In this document: piece after piece, positions 198 to 50,858 of the stretch
Layout: each line of letters begins with the position of its first letter
Numbering within the stretch: position 1 is the stretch's first letter
Source of the DNA: Pseudomonadota bacterium
GTDB lineage: Bacteria; Pseudomonadota; Gammaproteobacteria; Burkholderiales; Burkholderiaceae_C
Direction: 5' to 3'
Length of the DNA stretch: 64,000 nucleotides
Assembly: GCA_020161065.1 (NCBI GenBank)
Contig: JAIUPH010000011.1
Coordinates: 434,001-498,000, forward strand
Notes under the pieces: model-generated
Databases searched by the model: none
What the model saw: only the letters and a program-made list of their open reading frames with translations
What the model was told of the DNA's origin: nothing
Made by a program: the position numbers and the translations under genes

Positions 198-3100
198 TCA
201 GCCCAGCGCCTGCCGCGCGTTGCGGAACATCCGCATCCAGGGGCTGGGCGCCGACACGTCGCCGCCGCTCCAGCTCATCTGCACGTTGCGGAACACGCGC
301 TCGGGGTGCGGCATCAGCGCGGTGAAGCGGCCGTCGGCGGTGGTCACCGCGGTCAGGCCGTCGGGGCTGCCGTTGGGGTTGAAGGGGTAGGCCTCGGTCG
401 CGCGGCCGTGGTGGTCGACGAAGCGCAGCGCGCGCTGGACGCGCGCGGCGTCGCCGCGGCGGCTGAAGTCGGCATAACCCTCGCCATGAGCGACCGCGAT
501 CGGCATGCGGCTGCCCGCCATGCCGGCGAAGAAGACGCTGGGGCTGGCCAGCACTTCCACCAGCGACAGCCGGGCCTCGAACTGCTGGCTGCGGTTGCGC
601 GTGAAGCGCGGCCAGTCCTGCGTGCCGGGGATCAGCGGCGACAGCGCGGCCATCATCTGGCAGCCGTTGCAGACGCCCAAGGCCAGCGTGTCCGGGCGGT
701 TGAAGAAGGCGGCGAACGCCTCGGCCAGCTGCGGGTTGAAGAGGATCGAGCGCGCCCAGCCTTCGCCGGCGCCCAGCGTGTCGCCGTAGCTGAAGCCGCC
801 GCAGGCCACCAGTGCCTGGAAGTCGGCCAGCCGCGCGCGGCCGGCCTGCAGGTCGGACATGTGGACGTCGTAGCTCTCGAAGCCGGCCTGTGCCATCGCA
901 TAACTCATTTCCAGGTGCGAGTTGACGCCTTGCTCGCGCAGGATGGCGACCTTGGGCCGCGCGGCGCCGACCACCGCCGGCGCCAGCCCGGCCGCCGGCG
1001 CCGCGCCGGCCGCCGGGTCGAAGCTGAGGTGCCGGTGCAGGCCGGGGTCGTCGGCGGCGCCGGCCGCGGCGTGCTCGGCATCGGCGCATTCGGGGTTGTC
1101 GCGCTGGCGCGCGATCTGCCAGCTCACGTGGTCCCAGGCCTGCTGCAGGTCTTGCAGCGGGGCGCTGAACTGCAGCTTGGTGTCGCGCCAGACCTCGACC
1201 ACGCCGCGGTCTTGCGTCTTGCCGATGACGTGCGTGTGGCGCGACAGGCCGTGTTCGCGCAAGACGCCGATCACGCGGTCGCGCTGCTCGCTGGCCACCT
1301 GCAGCACGACGCCCAGCTCTTCGTTGAACAGCGCCTGCAGCATCAGCTCGTTGCGGCGCTCGCCCACCTGCGCGGCCCAGTTCTTGGAGTCGCCGTACTC
1401 GGCGCGGCTGTCGGCGATGCCGTCGCTGTCGGTCACGAGGATGTCGACGTTCAAGCTCACGCCGCGGCGGCCGGCAAACGCCATCTCGCAGACGCAGGCC
1501 CACAGGCCGCCGTCGCTGCGGTCGTGGTAGGCGAGGATCAGGCCCTGCTCGCGCAGCGCGTTGACGGCCGCCACCAGCGTTTTCAGCTGCGCCGGCTCGT
1601 CGAGGTCGGGCACCTCGCTGCCGAACTGCCCCAGCACCTGCGCCAGCATCGAGCCGCCCATGCGCCGCCGGCCCTGGCCGAGGTCGACCAGCAGCAGCGT
1701 GGTGTCGCCGCCCGCGAGCTGCGGCGTCAGCGTGCCGCGCACGTCGGCCACGCTCGCGAAGGCGGTGACGATCAGCGAGACCGGCGCGGTGACCTGCTTG
1801 GCCTGACCGCCATCGGTCCAGCGCGTGCGCATCGACAGCGAATCCTTGCCCACCGGCACGCCGATGCCCAAGGCCGGGCACAACGCCATGCCCACCGCCT
1901 TGACGGTGTCGTACAGCGCCGCGTCTTCGCCGGGCTCGCCGCAGGCGGCCATCCAGTTGCAGCTGAGCTTGACGCGCGAGAGCTCGATCGGCGCCGCCAG
2001 CGCGTTGGTGATGGCCTCGCCCACCGCCATGCGGCCCGAGGCCGGCGCGTCCAGCGCGGCCAGCGGCGTGCGCTCGCCCATGCACATCACTTCGCCGGCA
2101 AAGCCGCGGTAGTCGGCCAGCGTCACCGCGCAATCGGCCACCGGCACCTGCCAGGGGCCGACCATCGGGTCGCGGTGCGACAGGCCACCCACCGTGCGGT
2201 CACCGATCGTCACCAGGAAGCGCTTGCTGCCGACGGTGGGGTGGCGCAGCACGTCGAGCGCCACCTGCTCCAGCTGGACGCCGGTGAGGTCCAGCGCGGC
2301 TTCGCGGCGCACCACGCGCTGCACGTCGCGCTGCATGCGCGGCGGCTTGCCGAGCAGCACCTCCATCGGCATGTCGATCACGCGCTCGCCCTGCGGGCCG
2401 TCTTCCAGCACCAGCTGCGGCGCGTCGCTGGCGACGCCCACCACGGCGAAGGGGCAGCGCTCGCGCGCGCACATCTGCTGGAAGAGCGGCAGCAGGTCGG
2501 GGTTCAGCGCCAGCACGTAGCGCTCCTGGCTTTCGTTGCACCAGATCTCGCGCGGCGCGAGGCCGCTTTCTTCCAGCGGCACGCGGCGCAAGTCGAACGT
2601 TGCCCCTTTGCCGGCGCCGTCGACCAGCTCGGGGAAGGCATTGCTGATGCCGCCGGCGCCGACGTCGTGGATGGCGAGGATCGGATTCAACGCTCCAAGC
2701 GCCCAGCAGTGGTTGATGACCTCCTGCGCGCGGCGCTGGATCTCGGGGTTGCCGCGCTGCACGCTGTCGAAGTCCAGCGCCGCGGTGTTGCTGCCGGCGG
2801 CCATGCTGCTGGCAGCGCCGCCGCCCATGCCGATGCGCATGCCGGGCCCGCCCAGCTGCACCAGCAGCGTGCCGGCGCCGAAAGGCTTCTTGTGCGTCTG
2901 GCCGGCGCTGATCGCGCCCAGCCCGCCGGCGATCATGATGGGCTTGTGATAGCCGCGCATCACGCCGGCCACCGGCTGCTCGAAGACGCGGAAATAACCG
3001 CCTAGATTGGGACGTCCGAACTCGTTGTTGAAGGCCGCGCCGCCGAGCGGCCCCTCGGTCATGATCTGCAGCGCGCCGGCGATGTGCCCGGGCTTGCCGA

Positions 3101-4205
3101 CACCGCCCTGCTCCCAGCGCTCCGGCGCGCCGGGCAGCCGCAGATGGCCGACCGAGAAGCCGGTCAGCCCGGCCTTGGGCCGCGCGCCGCGGCCGGTGGC
3201 GCCTTCGTCGCGGATCTCGCCGCCGGCGCCGGTGGCGGCGCCGGGAAAGGGGCTGATCGCCGTCGGGTGGTTGTGCGTCTCCACCTTCATCAGCACGTGC
3301 GCCGTCTCTTCGCGCGCGCCGTAGGCCGGCGCGTTGGTGAAGCCCTGCGGCCCCCAGCGCTCGACGGCGTGGCCCTCCATCACCGCGGCGTTGTCGCTGT
3401 AGGCGACGATGCTGTGCTGCGGGCTCGTCTGCTCGGTGTGGCGGATCATGCCGAACATCGACAGCGGCTGGCGCTCGCCGTCGATGGTGAAGTCGGCGTT
3501 GAAGATCTTGTGCCGGCAATGCTCGCTGTTGGCCTGCGCGAACATCATCAGCTCGACGTCGCTGGGGTTGCGGCCCAGCGCCTTGAAGGCGTCGACGAGG
3601 TAGTCGATCTCGTCCGCGGCCAGCGCCAGGCCCCACTCGGCATCGGCCTCGCGCAGCGCCGGCGCGCCGCGGCCCAGCACGTCGACATGCGCCAGCGGCG
3701 GCGCCGGGCGCGGGTCGAACAAATGCGCCGCGGCCTCGCGCTCGAAGGCGGCCGCCTCGGTCATGCGGTCGTGCAGCAGCGCGGCCAGCGCCTGGCGCTC
3801 GTCGGCCTGCAGCGGCCGGGCGGCGCCGAGCAGGCGCTTTTCCAGCGTCAGCCGGAACTCGACGACGCGCTCGACGCGGTGCAGCGCCAGCCCGCAGTTG
3901 TGCGCGATGTCGCTGGCCTTGCTGGCCCAGGGCGAGACGGTGCCCAGGCGCGGCATCACGACGATCAGCTCGCCACCGGCAACCGGGCCGGCATAGGCGT
4001 CGCCGTAGTCGAGCAGCGCCGCCAGCTTGTCGACGGCGGCGCGGTCCGGCGCCGCGTCGAAGGCCGCCCAGTGCACGAAGCGCGCGGCCACCGCGGCCAC
4101 CCGCGGGCACGCCGCCTGCAGCCGCGCCAGCAGGGCTTGCGCGCGGAAGGCCGGGAGGGCGTCGCCGCCCTCGAAGTGCATCAGATGGAGGGGCGTCGGC
4201 GACAT
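198..4205 (-). CDS. purL: Phosphoribosylformylglycinamidine synthase, long form
   Basis: Catalyses the ATP- and glutamine-dependent conversion of FGAR to FGAM, the fourth step of de novo purine synthesis, in the cytoplasm. At 1335 residues it is the single-chain form of gamma and beta proteobacteria, not the split PurS/PurL/PurQ set. The N-terminal third holds the PurS-like and linker regions ([10 protein letters not shown] near residue 230). The middle holds two AIR-synthase-like ATP domains with the glycine-rich [10 protein letters not shown]. The C-terminus is a class I glutamine amidotransferase with nucleophile Cys1179 in GVCNGCQ and the closing MPHPERVF. It starts at ATG 4205 and is divergent from map across 61 bases. 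Confidence 0.98.
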
Positions 4206-4266
4206 GAGATCCCGGCAGGGTCAAGGAAAACCCGGATTCTAGGGTTGCGATGGAATAATCCAGACC

Positions 4267-5181
4267 ATGTCTATTGCCATCAAATCCGCCGCCGACATCG
4301 AAGGCATGCGCGTCGCCGGACGGCTGGCCTCCGAGGTGCTGGACCTGCTGACGCCGCACATCCGCGCCGGCGTCACCACCAAGGAGATCGACCGCCTGGC
4401 GCACGAGCACATGGTCAAGGTGCAAGGCGGCGTGCCGGCCACGCTGGGCTACCAGCCGCCGGGCTACCCGGCGTACCCGGCGTCGCTGTGCACCTCGCTC
4501 AACGACGTGGTCTGCCACGGCATCCCCGACGAGCGGCCGCTGAAGAACGGCGACATCCTCAACGTCGACGTCACCGTCATCAAGGACGGCTGGCACGGCG
4601 ACAACAGCCGCATGTTCGTGATCGGCGAGGCCAGCATCGCCGCCAAGCGGCTGTGCCAGATCACGTTCGAGGCGATGTGGAAGGGCATCGTCAAGGTGCG
4701 CCCCGGGGCGCGGCTGGGCGACGTCGGCCACGCGATCCAGATGTTCGCCGAGCACGCCGGCTACTCGGTCGTGCGCGAGTTCTGCGGCCACGGCGTCGGC
4801 GCGCGCTTCCACGAAGAGCCGCAGGTGCTGCACTACGGCCGCCCCGGCACGCTGGAAGAGCTGGTGCCGGGGATGATCTTCACGATCGAGCCGATGATCA
4901 ACGCCGGCCGCCGCGACATCAAGGAAGACCGCAAGGGCGGCCGGCCTTACGACGGCTGGACCATCGTGACGCGCGACCGCTCGCTGTCGGCGCAGTGGGA
5001 GCACACGGTGCTGGTCACCGAAACCGGCTACGAGGTGCTGACGGTCTCGGCCGGCAGCCCGCCGCCGCCGGCCTTCGCGCCGCTGGGCTATGGCGGCCAG
5101 GCCGGGACGGCACCGGCCGCTGCGCCGGGCGCCGCCGCGGCCCCGGCGGCGGCCCCGGCGGCGACCACGGCCGCGACCTGA
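4267..5181 (+). CDS. map: Type I methionine aminopeptidase
   Basis: Removes the initiator methionine from nascent proteins. The pita-bread fold ligands are all visible: His84, Asp101 (NVDVT), Asp112 (GDNS), His175 (GHGVG), His182, Glu208 (IEP) and Glu245 (WEHT). The catalytic part ends near residue 262. It is followed by about 40 residues made almost only of Ala, Pro and Gly, which the family does not need and which look like a low-complexity extension grown in a GC-rich genome. It is followed five bases later by glnD, a common order in Burkholderiales. The start is the first ATG and matches the family N-terminus. Confidence 0.97.
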   Translation: MSIAIKSAADIEGMRVAGRLASEVLDLLTPHIRAGVTTKEIDRLAHEHMVKVQGGVPATLGYQPPGYPAYPASLCTSLNDVVCHGIPDERPLKNGDILNVDVTVIKDGWHGDNSRMFVIGEASIAAKRLCQITFEAMWKGIVKVRPGARLGDVGHAIQMFAEHAGYSVVREFCGHGVGARFHEEPQVLHYGRPGTLEELVPGMIFTIEPMINAGRRDIKEDRKGGRPYDGWTIVTRDRSLSAQWEHTVLVTETGYEVLTVSAGSPPPPAFAPLGYGGQAGTAPAAAPGAAAAPAAAPAATTAAT

Positions 5182-27660: not shown

Positions 27661-27696
27661 TGGGGCGTTGCCATTGGCTTGGCCTACGGGTGCTTC

Positions 27697-27762
27697 GATC
27701 GGTCGTTCTTCGCTTGCACACGCTCACGGCCGGGGGCTTCAGCACGCGAAGAAGGGCCGATC
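27697..27762. repeat. 66-bp imperfect palindrome, short form of the 50.1-50.6 kb element
   Basis: Two 21-base arms (27697-27717 and 27742-27762) are complementary at 18 of 21 positions around a 24-base centre. Bases 27728-27755, which include CGGGGGCTTCAGCACGCG, are the exact reverse complement of 50075-50102, the left end of the large element, over 28 bases. It lies between the opine-type dehydrogenase stop and the ada-alkA start. The rest of this 162-base gap shows no firm promoter. Confidence 0.85.
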
Positions 27763-27822
27763 AAAGCCCAGCGAAAAGCACACGTCCGAAAACGGCCAGT
27801 CGTCACCATCCCGCCGCCTATC

Positions 27823-47613: not shown

Positions 47614-48590
47614 CGGCGCCCTTGCTCGAAGTGCGCGACCTCAAGAAGCACTACGTGGCGCCGCAGCGCTGGTTCGCGCCGCGGCGGCCGCCGGTGCAGG
47701 CGGTGGACGGCGTGTCGTTCGACGTGGCGCGCGGCGAGACGCTGTCGCTGGTGGGCGAATCGGGCTGCGGCAAGACCACCACCGCGAAGACCGTGCTGCG
47801 GCTGATCGAGCCCAGCGCCGGCACCGTGCGGCTGGACGGCGAGGAGCTGACGGCGCTGACGCCGGAACAGATGCGGCTGCGCCGGCGCGATGTGCAGATC
47901 ATCTTCCAGGACCCCTATGCCTCGCTGAACCCGCGGCTGGCCGCCGGCGAGATCGTCGCCGAGCCGCTGCGCAACTTCGGCGGCGCCACGCGCGCGCAGC
48001 GGCAGGAGCGCGTGCACTGGCTGCTGCAGCGCGTGGGCCTGCGGCCCGAGGCGGCCGCGAAGTATCCGCACGAGTTCTCCGGCGGCCAGCGCCAGCGCCT
48101 GGGCATCGCGCGCGCGCTGGCGTTGAACCCCAGGCTCATCGTCTGCGACGAGCCGGTCTCGGCGCTCGACGTCTCGGTGCAGGCGCAGGTCGTCAACCTG
48201 CTGATGGACCTGCAGGCCGAGTTCGGCATCGCCTACCTCTTCGTCGCCCACGACCTCGCGGTGGTGCGCCACATCAGCCGCCGCGTGGCGGTGATGTACC
48301 TCGGCCGCATCGTCGAGATCGCCGAGCGCGACACGCTGTTCGCCGCGCCGCTGCACCCCTACACTGAGATCCTGCTGTCGGCCGCGCCGGTGCCCAACCC
48401 GCGCACGCCGCCGCGCCGGCTGCTGCTGCAGGGCGACCCGCCGAGCCCCGCCAACCCGCCGCCGGGCTGCCGCTTCCACACCCGCTGCCCGCTGGCCCAG
48501 GACATCTGCCGCAGCCAGGCGCCGGCCTTGAGCAGCCGGCCATCGTCCACCACCGCCGGCGAGCACCTCGTCGCCTGCCACTTCCGTTGA
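47610..48590 (+). CDS. Peptide ABC importer ATPase, DppF-like
   Basis: A 326-residue ATPase with Walker A GESGCGKT at 49-56, Q-loop [12 protein letters not shown], signature [10 protein letters not shown], Walker [14 protein letters not shown] and the switch His in [10 protein letters not shown]. The C-terminal domain again has a cysteine-containing [14 protein letters not shown]. It is the second ATPase of the DppBCDF set and overlaps its partner's stop (ATGA). It is followed 11 bases later by the deacylase gene. Confidence 0.95.
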
Positions 48591-48601
48591 GGTCGAACGT
48601 C

Positions 48602-50050
48602 ATGAACGCCAACCACTACGACTTGCTGATCCGCGGCGGCACCGTCATCGACGGCAGCAAGGCGCCGCGCTTCGACGCCGACCTCGGCATCCGCGACGGC
48701 CGCATCGCGGCCATCGGCGACCTCGCCGGCGCCAGCGCCGACGAGACGCTGGACGCCGCGGGCCGCATCGTCGCGCCCGGCTTCATCGACTCGCACACCC
48801 ACGACGACCAGGCGCTGCTCGGCCAGCCGGCGATGGCGTTCAAGGTCTCGCAGGGCGTGACCACGGTGATCGCCGGCAACTGCGGCATCAGCGCCGCGCC
48901 GCTGCGCGAGGGCATGGCGCTGCCGATGCCCTTGACGCTGATGGACACGCCCGACACGCCGCGCTTCACGCGCTTTGCCGACTACCTGCAGGCGCTGCGG
49001 CATCGGCCGGCGGCCGTCAACGTCGCCGCGATGGTCGGCCACTCGACGCTGCGCGCCACCGTGATGGGCGACGACCTCGACCGCGCCGCCACCGACGCCG
49101 AGATCGCCGCGATGCGCGCGCATGTCGAAGAGGCGATGCAGGCCGGCGCCATCGGCCTGTCCACCGGCACCTTCTACCCGCCGGCGGTGAAGGCGACGAC
49201 CGAGGAGATCATCGAGGTCAGCCGCCCGCTCAGCGAGCGCAAGGCGCTGTACGTGACCCACATGCGCGACGAGGCCGACCGCGTGCTGGAGGCGCTGGAC
49301 GAGACTTTCCGCATCGGCCGCGCGCTCGACGTGCCGGTGGTCGTCTCGCACCACAAGGTGATGAATCGCGCCAACCACGGCAAGTCGGCCGGCACGCTGG
49401 CCTACATCCGCGAATCGATGCGCCACCAGTGCATCGGACTCGACTGTTATCCCTACACCGCCGGCTCGACGATGATCCGCGCCGACCGCGGCATGATCGA
49501 AGAGCGCACGCTGATCGCCTCCAGCGAGCCGCACCCCGAGATGGCGGGCCGCGAGCTGGCCGACATCGCCGCCGAATGGGGCGTCGACCGCGCCGAGGCC
49601 GCGCGCCGGCTGCAGCCCGGCACCGCGATCTACTTCCTGATGGACGAAGCCGACGTGCAGCGCATCCTGGCCTTCGACGAGACCATGGTCGGCTCCGACG
49701 GCATCCCCGTCGGCGACAAGCCGCACCCGCGGCTATGGGGCACCTTCCCGCGCGTGCTGGGCCACTACTGCCGCGAGGTCGGCCTGTTTCCGCTGGAGAC
49801 GGCGGTGTGGAAGATGACCGGCCTGACCGCCCGCCACTTCGGCCTGCAAGGCCGCGGCAGCCTGCAGGTGGGCCACCACGCCGACGTGGTGATCTTCGAC
49901 GCCGCCACCATCAGCGACGCCGCCAGCTATGCCCAGCCGACGCTGCCGGCGCAAGGCATCGATGCGGTGATCGTCAACGGGCTCGTCACCTGGCGGGATG
50001 GGGCGCACACGGGGGCGCGTGGGGGGCAGGTGATCACGCGGGGGGCATGA
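48602..50050 (+). CDS. N-acyl-D-amino-acid deacylase (D-aminoacylase)
   Basis: A 482-residue amidohydrolase that frees D-amino acids from N-acyl derivatives. The zinc-binding HxH is at His65/His67 (FIDSHTHDDQ). The family Cys lies in AGNCGISAAP near 96, and HHK (VVSHHKVMNRANHGK) follows near 243, as in D-aminoacylases and D-glutamate deacylases. The last gene of an eight-gene plus-strand run, it makes the best case that the run imports and degrades N-acyl-D-amino acids or D-amino-acid peptides. The ATG at 48602 is used; the in-frame upstream GTG-type start adds five residues. The large palindromic element begins 18 bases after its stop. Confidence 0.93.
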   Translation: MNANHYDLLIRGGTVIDGSKAPRFDADLGIRDGRIAAIGDLAGASADETLDAAGRIVAPGFIDSHTHDDQALLGQPAMAFKVSQGVTTVIAGNCGISAAPLREGMALPMPLTLMDTPDTPRFTRFADYLQALRHRPAAVNVAAMVGHSTLRATVMGDDLDRAATDAEIAAMRAHVEEAMQAGAIGLSTGTFYPPAVKATTEEIIEVSRPLSERKALYVTHMRDEADRVLEALDETFRIGRALDVPVVVSHHKVMNRANHGKSAGTLAYIRESMRHQCIGLDCYPYTAGSTMIRADRGMIEERTLIASSEPHPEMAGRELADIAAEWGVDRAEAARRLQPGTAIYFLMDEADVQRILAFDETMVGSDGIPVGDKPHPRLWGTFPRVLGHYCREVGLFPLETAVWKMTGLTARHFGLQGRGSLQVGHHADVVIFDAATISDAASYAQPTLPAQGIDAVIVNGLVTWRDGAHTGARGGQVITRGA

Positions 50051-50125
50051 GCCTCTCGGGGGCTCGTGAGCGGTCCTTCTTCGCGTGCTGAAGCCCCCGG
50101 CCGGGTCTCGGCCCGGCGGCCGACT

Positions 50126-50153
50126 CCCTTTCTTTGCTGGTGCAAAGAAAGGG
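50126..50153. repeat. Perfect hairpin, 12-bp stem
   Basis: CCCTTTCTTTGC, loop TGGT, GCAAAGAAAGGG: all twelve pairs match. Part of the large element. The message of the deacylase gene would fold this 76 bases after its stop. No T-run follows, so it is not a classical terminator. Confidence 0.9.
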
Positions 50154-50238
50154 AGCAAAGAAAGCACCTTGAACGCAACACCCCCGGCTCGTTCTTCGGT
50201 GATCGGTCGCTGCGCTCCGGCCGGTGGCCGTGACAGTT

Positions 50239-50427
50239 CTCGCAAAGTCTTGCTCGACAGCGCCGACTGTTCACCAGCGGCGTGTCGCGAGCGGCGTCAC
50301 GCTGGACCACCGTCCGCTCTTCAGGCGCAGGAAGCGGTGGCATGCCGATGGCTGGTGGTCCAGCGTGACGACGTACCGTCTCGCCTGGGCGGCGAACAGT
50401 CGGCGCTGTCGAGCAAGACTTTGCGAG
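50239..50427. repeat. Exact 34-bp inverted repeat with inner 17-bp inverted repeat
   Basis: Arms 50239-50272 and 50394-50427 are exact reverse complements (the left begins CTCGCAAAGTCTTGC). Between them a second exact pair, 50295-50311 and 50354-50370 (left CGTCACGCTGGACCACC), surrounds a 42-base centre. The exactness of two separate pairs with unpaired stretches between them suggests recent origin, gene conversion between arms, or selection on structure. Confidence 0.9.
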
Positions 50428-50511
50428 AGCATCGAGTGACAGCCGCACCGAGCGCAGCGAGCAAGCCGCAGCCGACGAGCCGTGGGTGTTGCATTCGAGG
50501 TGCTTTCTTTG

Positions 50512-50543
50512 CCTACTTTCTTTGCACCAGCAAAGAAAGTAGG
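50512..50543. repeat. Perfect hairpin, 14-bp stem
   Basis: CCTACTTTCTTTGC, loop ACCA, GCAAAGAAAGTAGG: all fourteen pairs match. It mirrors the hairpin at 50126 on the other side of the element, with three changed base pairs at the base of the stem that keep pairing. Confidence 0.9.
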
Positions 50544-50597
50544 TCGGCCGCGGGGACGAAACCCCGCCGGGGGCCTGCGCACGCGAAGAAAGCCCGC

Positions 50598-50858
50598 TCA
50601 ACGCCCCGCGCGATCCGCAGGCTCAGCCACGTGCACTTCCAGCATCGCCCGGTGCTCCGTCACCGCCCGCAGCACCAGCGGCCGCAGCCCCTCGCCACCG
50701 GTCTCGACCACATGCGCCAGCAAGGCCGCACGCATGCGCGGCTCCCAGAACTTGCGCAGGTGCACGGCCGTCTCGCGGGCGCCTTCGTCGGCGTCGGGCA
50801 TCGACTCGAAGAACTCGGCGATGCGGTTGGCCATGTGCAGCAGGTTGTCGATGTCCAT
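50598..50858 (-). CDS. fdsD: Formate dehydrogenase delta subunit
   Basis: An 86-residue helical protein beginning DIDNLLHMANRIAEFFESMPD, as in FdsD of NAD-dependent formate dehydrogenases. It is a small subunit or maturation helper of the FdsABG complex and is needed for full activity in related systems. It begins four bases after fdhD and is the last gene of the operon. Its stop codon is at the edge of the palindromic element. Confidence 0.92.
   Translation of the reverse strand: MDIDNLLHMANRIAEFFESMPDADEGARETAVHLRKFWEPRMRAALLAHVVETGGEGLRPLVLRAVTEHRAMLEVHVAEPADRAGR

Follow-up and report, generated by a model that had tools for sequence, protein, structure and literature searches.

The large interrupted palindrome at positions 50045-50622 of the window, i.e., the whole 64,000-nucleotide stretch of Pseudomonadota contig JAIUPH010000011.1 analyzed here, is best understood as one copy of a dispersed family of long, structured, MITE-like, non-autonomous mobile elements. 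We would give this reading, which includes a putative mover acting in trans and a putative role as a transcription barrier, a probability of roughly 70%.

A typical element of the family has two inverted, structured ends. Each comprises hairpin A, which is GC-based, hairpin B, which is rich in A/T, and a short stretch able to pair with the hairpin B loop in a pseudoknot-like manner; the mutually pairing arms allow a strand to fold either as a long rod or in a form from which both hairpins protrude. The copies lie directly behind genes, often between convergent genes, most pairs being short (270-955 bp) and some longer, with open reading frames (ORFs) in the loop that are partly defense or toxin-antitoxin genes. 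The element would be moved by an enzyme supplied in trans that recognizes the folded end modules, and the inserted hairpin may act as a two-way transcription barrier, which would make insertions tolerable or useful.

Structure of the palindrome

The window element lies between two convergent genes that end into it, encoding an amidohydrolase (deacylase) and FdsD, its right edge coinciding with the stop codon of FdsD, and this copy carries no cargo. Among the listed genomes of the genus, none besides its own has both flanking genes in one stretch. The features are as follows, R1 being a covariance model of the 76-nt end module built from 56 modules.

27690-27768, no strand: collapsed remnant of the element (37-bp match of 95%, E 6e-9; G000:C37:461727-461763)
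48587-50050, plus: amidohydrolase (deacylase) gene, ending into the element (PF07969, E 8.2e-34; stop at 50050)
50045-50622, no strand: whole palindromic element including the outer arms (inverted-repeat alignment of 50045-50311 with 50354-50622, 77% over 270)
50060-50099, plus: left outer arm, TTCTTCGCGTGC type, pairing with the right outer arm
50100-50175, plus: left end module, 76 nt (R1, cmsearch 92.3 bits, E 1.7e-22, the score of a seed member)
50100-50117, plus: left hairpin A, GC-rich (GCCGGG-tctcgg-CCCGGC)
50124-50155, plus: left hairpin B, CTCCCTTTCTTTGC-TGGT-GCAAAGAAAGGGAG, perfect 14-bp stem with covariation over 56 modules
50156-50168, plus: CAAAGAAAG-CACC segment; with the preceding G, its GCACC complements the hairpin B loop GGTGC (50139-50143)
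50238-50275, plus: inner left arm, 38 nt, 97% complementary to 50391-50428
50292-50311, plus: innermost left arm, 20 nt, 95% complementary to 50354-50373
50312-50353, no strand: center loop, the place at which other copies (L064, L065, L145-L147) carry ORFs
50354-50373, minus: innermost right arm, partner of the innermost left arm
50391-50428, minus: inner right arm, partner of the inner left arm
50492-50567, minus: right end module, 76 nt, inverted (R1, cmsearch 93.2 bits, E 1e-22, again the score of a seed member)
50499-50511, minus: GGTG-CTTTCTTTG, the segment on the right side that corresponds to the loop-complementary one on the left (from sequence, repeats and loop covariation)
50512-50543, minus: right hairpin B, CCTACTTTCTTTGC-ACCA-GCAAAGAAAGTAGG, perfect 14-bp hairpin
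50550-50567, minus: right hairpin A (from sequence)
50568-50603, minus: right outer arm, abutting the FdsD stop codon (from sequence)
50598-50858, minus: fdsD gene, ending into the element (PF11390 FdsD, E 4.8e-25; stop at 50598-50600)

The whole forms a single interrupted palindrome with 222 paired arm positions among 262 aligned arm columns. The outer arms extend over 180 nt at 77% (50045-50224 versus 50443-50622), and the longest exact inner arms over 35 bp (50238-50272 versus 50394-50428), compared with an exact inverted repeat of at most 16 nt across 60 shuffles in two-base blocks. The nested inverted repeats which a first, sequence-only reading of this DNA had taken for one large palindrome were recovered as described, including its two perfect hairpins, with 14-bp stems at 50124-50155 and 50512-50543, and its exact 17-bp pair (50295-50311 with 50354-50370). 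The exact inner pair that it reported is also present, at a length of 35 bp and not 34, and the limits it proposed (50068-50599) do place the element in the intergenic gap, although the arms reach slightly further on both sides.

Folded as RNA, the element has a predicted energy of -420.7 kcal/mol, whereas shuffled versions average -260.3 (z -21.1, with 0 of 100 shuffles as low), and the minimum-energy form predicted for the window copy is one long rod. Membership in a known RNA family was rejected, given that Rfam 15 returned no match at the gathering score anywhere in the window.

Copies and distribution

In its own genome (6.29 Mb) the element has a second full copy on contig C3 (94%) and a partly deleted copy on C34 (91%) which has lost its right module; weaker matches in this genome (E above 0.005) were not counted as copies. 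In the remnant at 27690-27768, as judged by eye, the two outer arms are fused and the modules and the interior are gone. An arm resembling the left outer arm of the window copy is found in the C3 copy, the C34 copy and the remnant alike.

Matches were obtained in 11 of the 81 genomes of the genus, own genome included, and copies that are 66-91% alike occupy many further places in genomes of the G573 genus. Searches with R1 were positive in 12 of 61 relatives, in 101 of 300 genomes (56 of 140 genera) sampled from the order, and in 31 of 299 genomes sampled from the phylum, 30 of which belong to the same class and one of which lies outside it. The numbers of matches per genome in the order and phylum samples are lower bounds, because 16 candidates were scored per genome; in one 4.6-Mb genome (G642), for which 150 candidates were scored, 85 matches were recorded. 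The distribution is patchy across both genus and order. The search of this genome and its relatives proposed in the sequence-only reading thus returned dispersed copies at all three levels, own genome, genus and order, and the finding which that reading had named as speaking against a mobile or structured-RNA family, a single copy with no covariation among relatives, did not occur.

Only 3 of the 299 family genomes searched contain the window type of pattern in a strict, exact form. Named carriers of an exact-pattern match (31 stretches) are metagenome-assembled genomes labelled Rubrivivax, Roseateles, Burkholderiales, Burkholderiaceae and Brevundimonas, together with Lysobacter sp. M2-1 and Piscinibacter defluvii, and such a match is also present in five plasmid records from Caballeronia and Variovorax. 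The plasmid records matched in three scans numbered 5, 2 and 5, most of them being replicons at least 0.4 Mb in size. Phage records gave no match, and neither did IMG/VR, which was scanned with one pattern; a phage or plasmid vehicle was rejected on account of these few plasmid matches and the lack of any in the phage records and IMG/VR.

Conserved end module and maintenance of base pairing

Related loci share a conserved end module, which is usually present at both ends in inverted orientation. In the alignment of 56 modules it comprises the GC hairpin A (a hairpin is seen by eye at this position in most of them), followed by hairpin B, with the core CTTTCTTTGC and variants such as CTTTCATTTG, and then by the CAAAGAAAG-CACC segment. 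Hairpin B is paired in 99.0% of the alignment cells even as 7 of its 12 pairs have changed on both sides; four of five covariation measures lie above all 500 shuffles, and for the remaining one, further pair types, 16 of the 500 shuffles attained the observed value. RNAalifold proposed only this hairpin from the same alignment.

The hairpin B loop could pair with the final portion of its own module, in complementary combinations such as GGTGC/GCACC, GGCCC/GGGCC, TCGCC/GGCGA and GCTGC/GCAGC. An exact loop complement of at least 4 nt occurs in 134 of 149 distinct modules, the other 15 having none, against a mean of 55 and a maximum of 74 with shuffled partners; counted by distinct loops the figure is 29 of 37 against a shuffle maximum of 22, and a first test on 48 distinct pairs was equaled by 0 of 5000 shuffles, all three comparisons being uncorrected for relatedness. 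This covariation is the pattern that an H-type pseudoknot would leave, and it suggests a pseudoknot-like fold that may form in RNA or in single-stranded DNA. A mirror-repeat (triplex) arrangement of the segment inside hairpin B was also considered and rejected, given that 107 cases with asymmetric arms were divided into 35 mirror, 51 direct and 21 tied, the arm subset in favor of a mirror repeat having been picked post hoc, after the data had been seen.

Changes in the arms are partly compensated as well. An alignment of the window copy with the C3 copy has 43 substitutions in 570 positions, and 218 of the 222 arm pairs can be compared: 202 are unchanged, seven have changed on both sides and all seven still pair, three one-sided changes keep the pairing, and six of the 16 changed pairs are broken. 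In addition, 11 positions that are unpaired in the window copy are paired in the C3 copy. By our own estimate, one or two double arm changes would be expected by chance at a divergence of about 7.5%. The covariation of hairpin B, the covariation between its loop and the downstream segment, and the compensatory arm changes bear out the earlier suggestion that base pairing is maintained.

Part of the arm compensation may nevertheless have its source in arm-to-arm homogenization. It is possible, if somewhat doubtful, that the inner arms are kept identical by gene conversion or template switching, i.e., by a mutational process and not by selection for pairing, as would fit the complementarity of 95-97% between the inner arms of the window copy and the strong differences in inner arms between elements that still pair. 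On the other hand, conversion cannot explain the loop/downstream covariation within one module, and single unrepaired mismatches in the inner arms (50260, 50293) distinguish the window and C3 copies.

Paired, single and rearranged modules

In a set of 43 loci, at least one convergent module pair is present in 31, a single full module in 11, and two identically oriented modules in one, which lies at the end of its contig; over all loci, nhmmer detected a single module in 29 of 149, several of them at contig ends. One genome (G561) accounts for eight of the 11 single modules in the 43-locus set, all eight of its fetched loci (L171-L178) being of this type, with no inverted partner module within about 2 kb. 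These loci represent half-elements that share some 240-280 bp, namely a module plus an inner hairpin. Because single modules and half-elements exist, the convergent pair is the usual but not the sole form of the family, and the idea that modules are always paired was ruled out.

Other arrangements were seen at particular loci. Two of the G561 loci (L171, L178) are next to tandem arrays with units of 260-269 bp, and a third (L172) is next to three copies with a spacing of 247 bp. In G607 (L155, L194), tandem modules about 253 bp apart are found at one or both ends, which suggests nested insertions or tandem half-units. At L126, around 1010-1230, the element has collapsed to one hairpin B between two hairpins A, with long outer arms.

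Empty sites and mobility

The most direct record of movement comes from the comparison of occupied and empty sites. At the L188 site of the G573 genus, the element lies between convergent genes in G573 (592 bp between anchors) and G671 (569 bp) and is absent from G673 and G667, in which the two stop codons are 2 bp apart (TAG GC TTA); the anchors are separated by 3 bp in G681 and by 51 bp in G686, and G675 and G676 hold stretches of 578 and 657 bp that may be other sequence. The G573 element begins directly after the left TAG and ends directly before the right stop codon, and at this clean site the insertion left both reading frames whole.

Similarly, the element-2 site of L222 is occupied in four of 15 genomes (G573, G684, G671 and G669), and the unoccupied sites measure 7 bp or fewer in eight, 49 and 98 bp in two, and 1310 bp, made up of other sequence, in one. 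The mobility of the family follows from these empty sites, which were found at two loci in close relatives. Together with the dispersed copies, they uphold the MITE-like, non-autonomous element which had been among the possibilities raised from the sequence. Inspection by eye of 29 elements from four genomes, of a set of six elements and of the compared sites revealed no clear target-site duplication, the direct repeats at the junctions being at most 1-2 nt long and ambiguous.

At a further site of G573, that of element 1, a hairpin resembling a terminator follows the stop codon in two relatives that lack the element, as judged by eye, and this hairpin is missing in G573. About 3.25 kb of other sequence takes the place of this element in G671, G680, G685, G674 and G672.

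Cargo-bearing copies

Pairs of modules span 270-955 bp in 96 of 106 cases and 1.1 kb or more in the other 10. Eleven long copies bear cargo (L064, L065, two in L145, L146, L147, L149, L189, L190, L219 and L220), a count which adds L065, beyond the 3.5-kb limit, and L149, in which nhmmer missed one module, and which omits L138. In G545 (L145-L147), for example, the ORFs lie between repeats of 125-216 bp with 94-98% identity. Passenger-carrying non-autonomous transposons of the MIC/TIME type have inverted repeats around their passenger genes, a transposase in trans and short, Tn3-type ends; the present family is like them, on their general description, in the inverted repeats around passenger genes and in a mover that would act in trans, and would differ from them in its ends.

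Defense or toxin-antitoxin families were recognized in four of the 11 cargo-bearing copies, which is not an enrichment figure, most cargo loci having been fetched for their long spacing and without a control set. They are a PDC-S11 protein with a NucS_C domain in L064 (E 1.6e-158 for PDC-S11), a MmeI-like type IIG restriction-modification protein in L065, an Mrr_cat nuclease in one of the two copies of L145, and PIN plus TIR_2 in L147. The other seven gave no recognized family at E 0.001 among the mechanically called ORFs that were searched. In L064, the candidate defense protein PDC-S11 (1921-3012) lies between two half-palindromes, with the short repeat TCGATAGTTCG on both sides (by eye).

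Pfam and PADLOC recognized no mobility gene in the cargo ORFs that were searched, L138 aside. This locus, from Piscinibacter defluvii, has an IS30-family-transposase-like ORF inside the element by eye (3340-5168), and it was rejected as cargo given that the gene, near one end, reads as a later insertion. L197 was rejected as a single element, its modules being 13.7 kb apart around ordinary genes, and L148 as a cargo-bearing copy, its CAP12-type TIR gene lying beside, not between, the nearest module pair. At L148 (2131-5559), one module precedes an ORF that by eye is nrdB-like (ribonucleotide reductase beta) and a pair lies behind the CAP12/Pycsar-type TIR gene, so that ends of the family seem to lie on either side of the nrdB-like gene.

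Nature of the element and its mover

The family resembles MITEs in its terminal inverted repeats, its many copies and the lack of a transposase of its own, with the half-elements of G561 as the exception, and insertion polymorphism was found at two loci. A conventional MITE, i.e., a deletion derivative of a DDE-type insertion sequence (IS) which has unusually long terminal repeats and is moved by the transposase of that IS, would account for the terminal inverted repeats without a recognized transposase inside, and for the many copies, some of them with passenger ORFs. We nonetheless consider it unlikely, since the loci examined did not include a parental IS that has these ends, and no autonomous IS sharing the ends occurs among the 11 cargo-bearing copies; moreover, no clear target-site duplication was seen, what is conserved is for the most part secondary structure, upheld by compensatory changes, and half-elements exist.

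In the 2007 review PMC2229807, the bacterial MITEs ERIC, RUP, Correia/NEMIS and RU-2 are about 100-200 bp long, with contiguous terminal repeats of 4-24 bp, and bacterial MITEs often have target-site duplications and TA ends. Terminal inverted repeats, predicted long stem-loop transcripts, intergenic position, multiple copies and the lack of a transposase are features that the window family has in common with the MITEs in these sections, and it differs from them in its size of mostly 270-955 bp, its repeats of 100-250 bp, its pseudoknot-like two-hairpin ends, its cargo and the lack of an observed target-site duplication.

Within the preferred reading of a structured family moved in trans, the conserved folded ends suggest, without proving it, an enzyme that reads folded single strands. 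A bolder extension, which we regard as tentative and rather improbable, is that the family belongs to a class of mobile elements whose folded single-strand ends, a hairpin pair plus a pseudoknot, would be recognized by an enzyme that inserts them at gene ends, even where only 2 bp separate two stop codons, and which would serve across the Gammaproteobacteria (as delimited in GTDB) as a portable two-way terminator and a chassis for small defense cargo.

The placement of the copies was examined in 106 unique module pairs under 3.5 kb in the fetched loci, which are best hits and not a random sample; a simple, composition-based and therefore crude gene caller allowed 94 to be typed, the other 12 having no called gene on one side. 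The typed pairs lie in 41 convergent, 48 codirectional and 5 divergent gaps, as opposed to 18, 44 and 39 control gaps of at least 100 bp in the same loci and the window (Fisher p 2e-9 for convergent versus divergent and 1e-4 for convergent versus the rest). It is on the basis of these counts that the elements can be said to sit behind genes and to be scarce in divergent gaps. For the 41 convergent pairs, the edge of a module is separated from the end of the neighboring gene by a median of 98.5 bp, and 41 of the 82 distances are within 100 bp.

A role as a putative two-way transcription barrier is plausible, as the position between the amidohydrolase gene and fdsD would fit it. No canonical intrinsic terminator (GC stem plus T run) was found in 49900-50800, for which shuffles gave a mean of 0.8; this does not exclude other modes of termination. 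That the palindrome is a two-way terminator or structured RNA which evolved locally and has been kept in place, without being mobile, is very unlikely: strong conservation of structure, placement behind genes, and the absence from one G573 site of the terminator-like hairpin seen by eye in two element-free relatives speak for it, but similar copies are dispersed within one genome, the distribution is patchy, and the clean empty sites argue against it as the sole explanation.

Slightly less probable still is that the element is a REP/BIME, i.e., two inverted REPs mobilized by a RAYT (TnpA-REP) tyrosine transposase. In its favor, many modules have a tetranucleotide GTAG(G) or GGAG next to a GC hairpin and occur as inverted pairs, and Y1_Tnp matches were obtained in four of 16 genomes of the genus and in 16 of 25 module-bearing genomes, with eight in G561 alone. 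However, a RAYT is not the general mover, because Y1_Tnp (PF01797) is missing from 12 of the 16 genomes of the genus, own genome included, and from nine of the 25 module-bearing genomes, including the one with 85 module matches (G642). In addition, the module of 76 nt and the elements of mostly 270-955 bp are far above the 20-40 bp of a REP, and a GTAG-type tetranucleotide sits within hairpin B, where it varies over the 56 modules. Membership of the RAYT/REP system was rejected on the absence of PF01797 from the element's own genome and of the defining tetranucleotide beside a 20-40 bp palindrome. In the relevant passages of the literature, REPs are smaller and RAYT-associated, the spacers of their dimers being mostly 20-100 bp (PMC2817692; for GTAG families, PMC3733652), and these passages describe what the window family shares with them, namely inverted palindrome pairs near a GTAG-type tetranucleotide in extragenic DNA; the window family is larger, lacks a consistent RAYT in its genomes and does not conserve the tetranucleotide.

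The pneumococcal SPRITE, as summarized in PMC10969869, is likewise a repeat with terminator-like sequence, in a different host, the comparison being one of descriptions only. The main text of that 2024 MITE review contains no mention of Burkholderia, Betaproteobacteria, Xanthomonas, cargo or passenger. The open-access papers searched yielded no account of this family, although subscription journals or preprints may have one; the longer motif strings are absent from these papers, and short ones occur only in papers that are apparently on other subjects. Non-autonomous inverted-repeat elements are already known as a kind, and the window family is a variant of them that is apparently undescribed in the open-access literature and may be known elsewhere.

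Significance

With carriers making up roughly one in three of the genomes sampled from the order, the family would contribute notably to the intergenic palindromes of this group, and it would account for the CTTTCTTTGC hairpins in Burkholderiales intergenic DNA on which the sequence-only reading had remarked. The element can break assemblies, several copies being located at contig ends, and its ends offer a flank marker when hunting defense genes. Its clean insertion polymorphisms provide a way to study the movement of structured elements that have no evident transposase.
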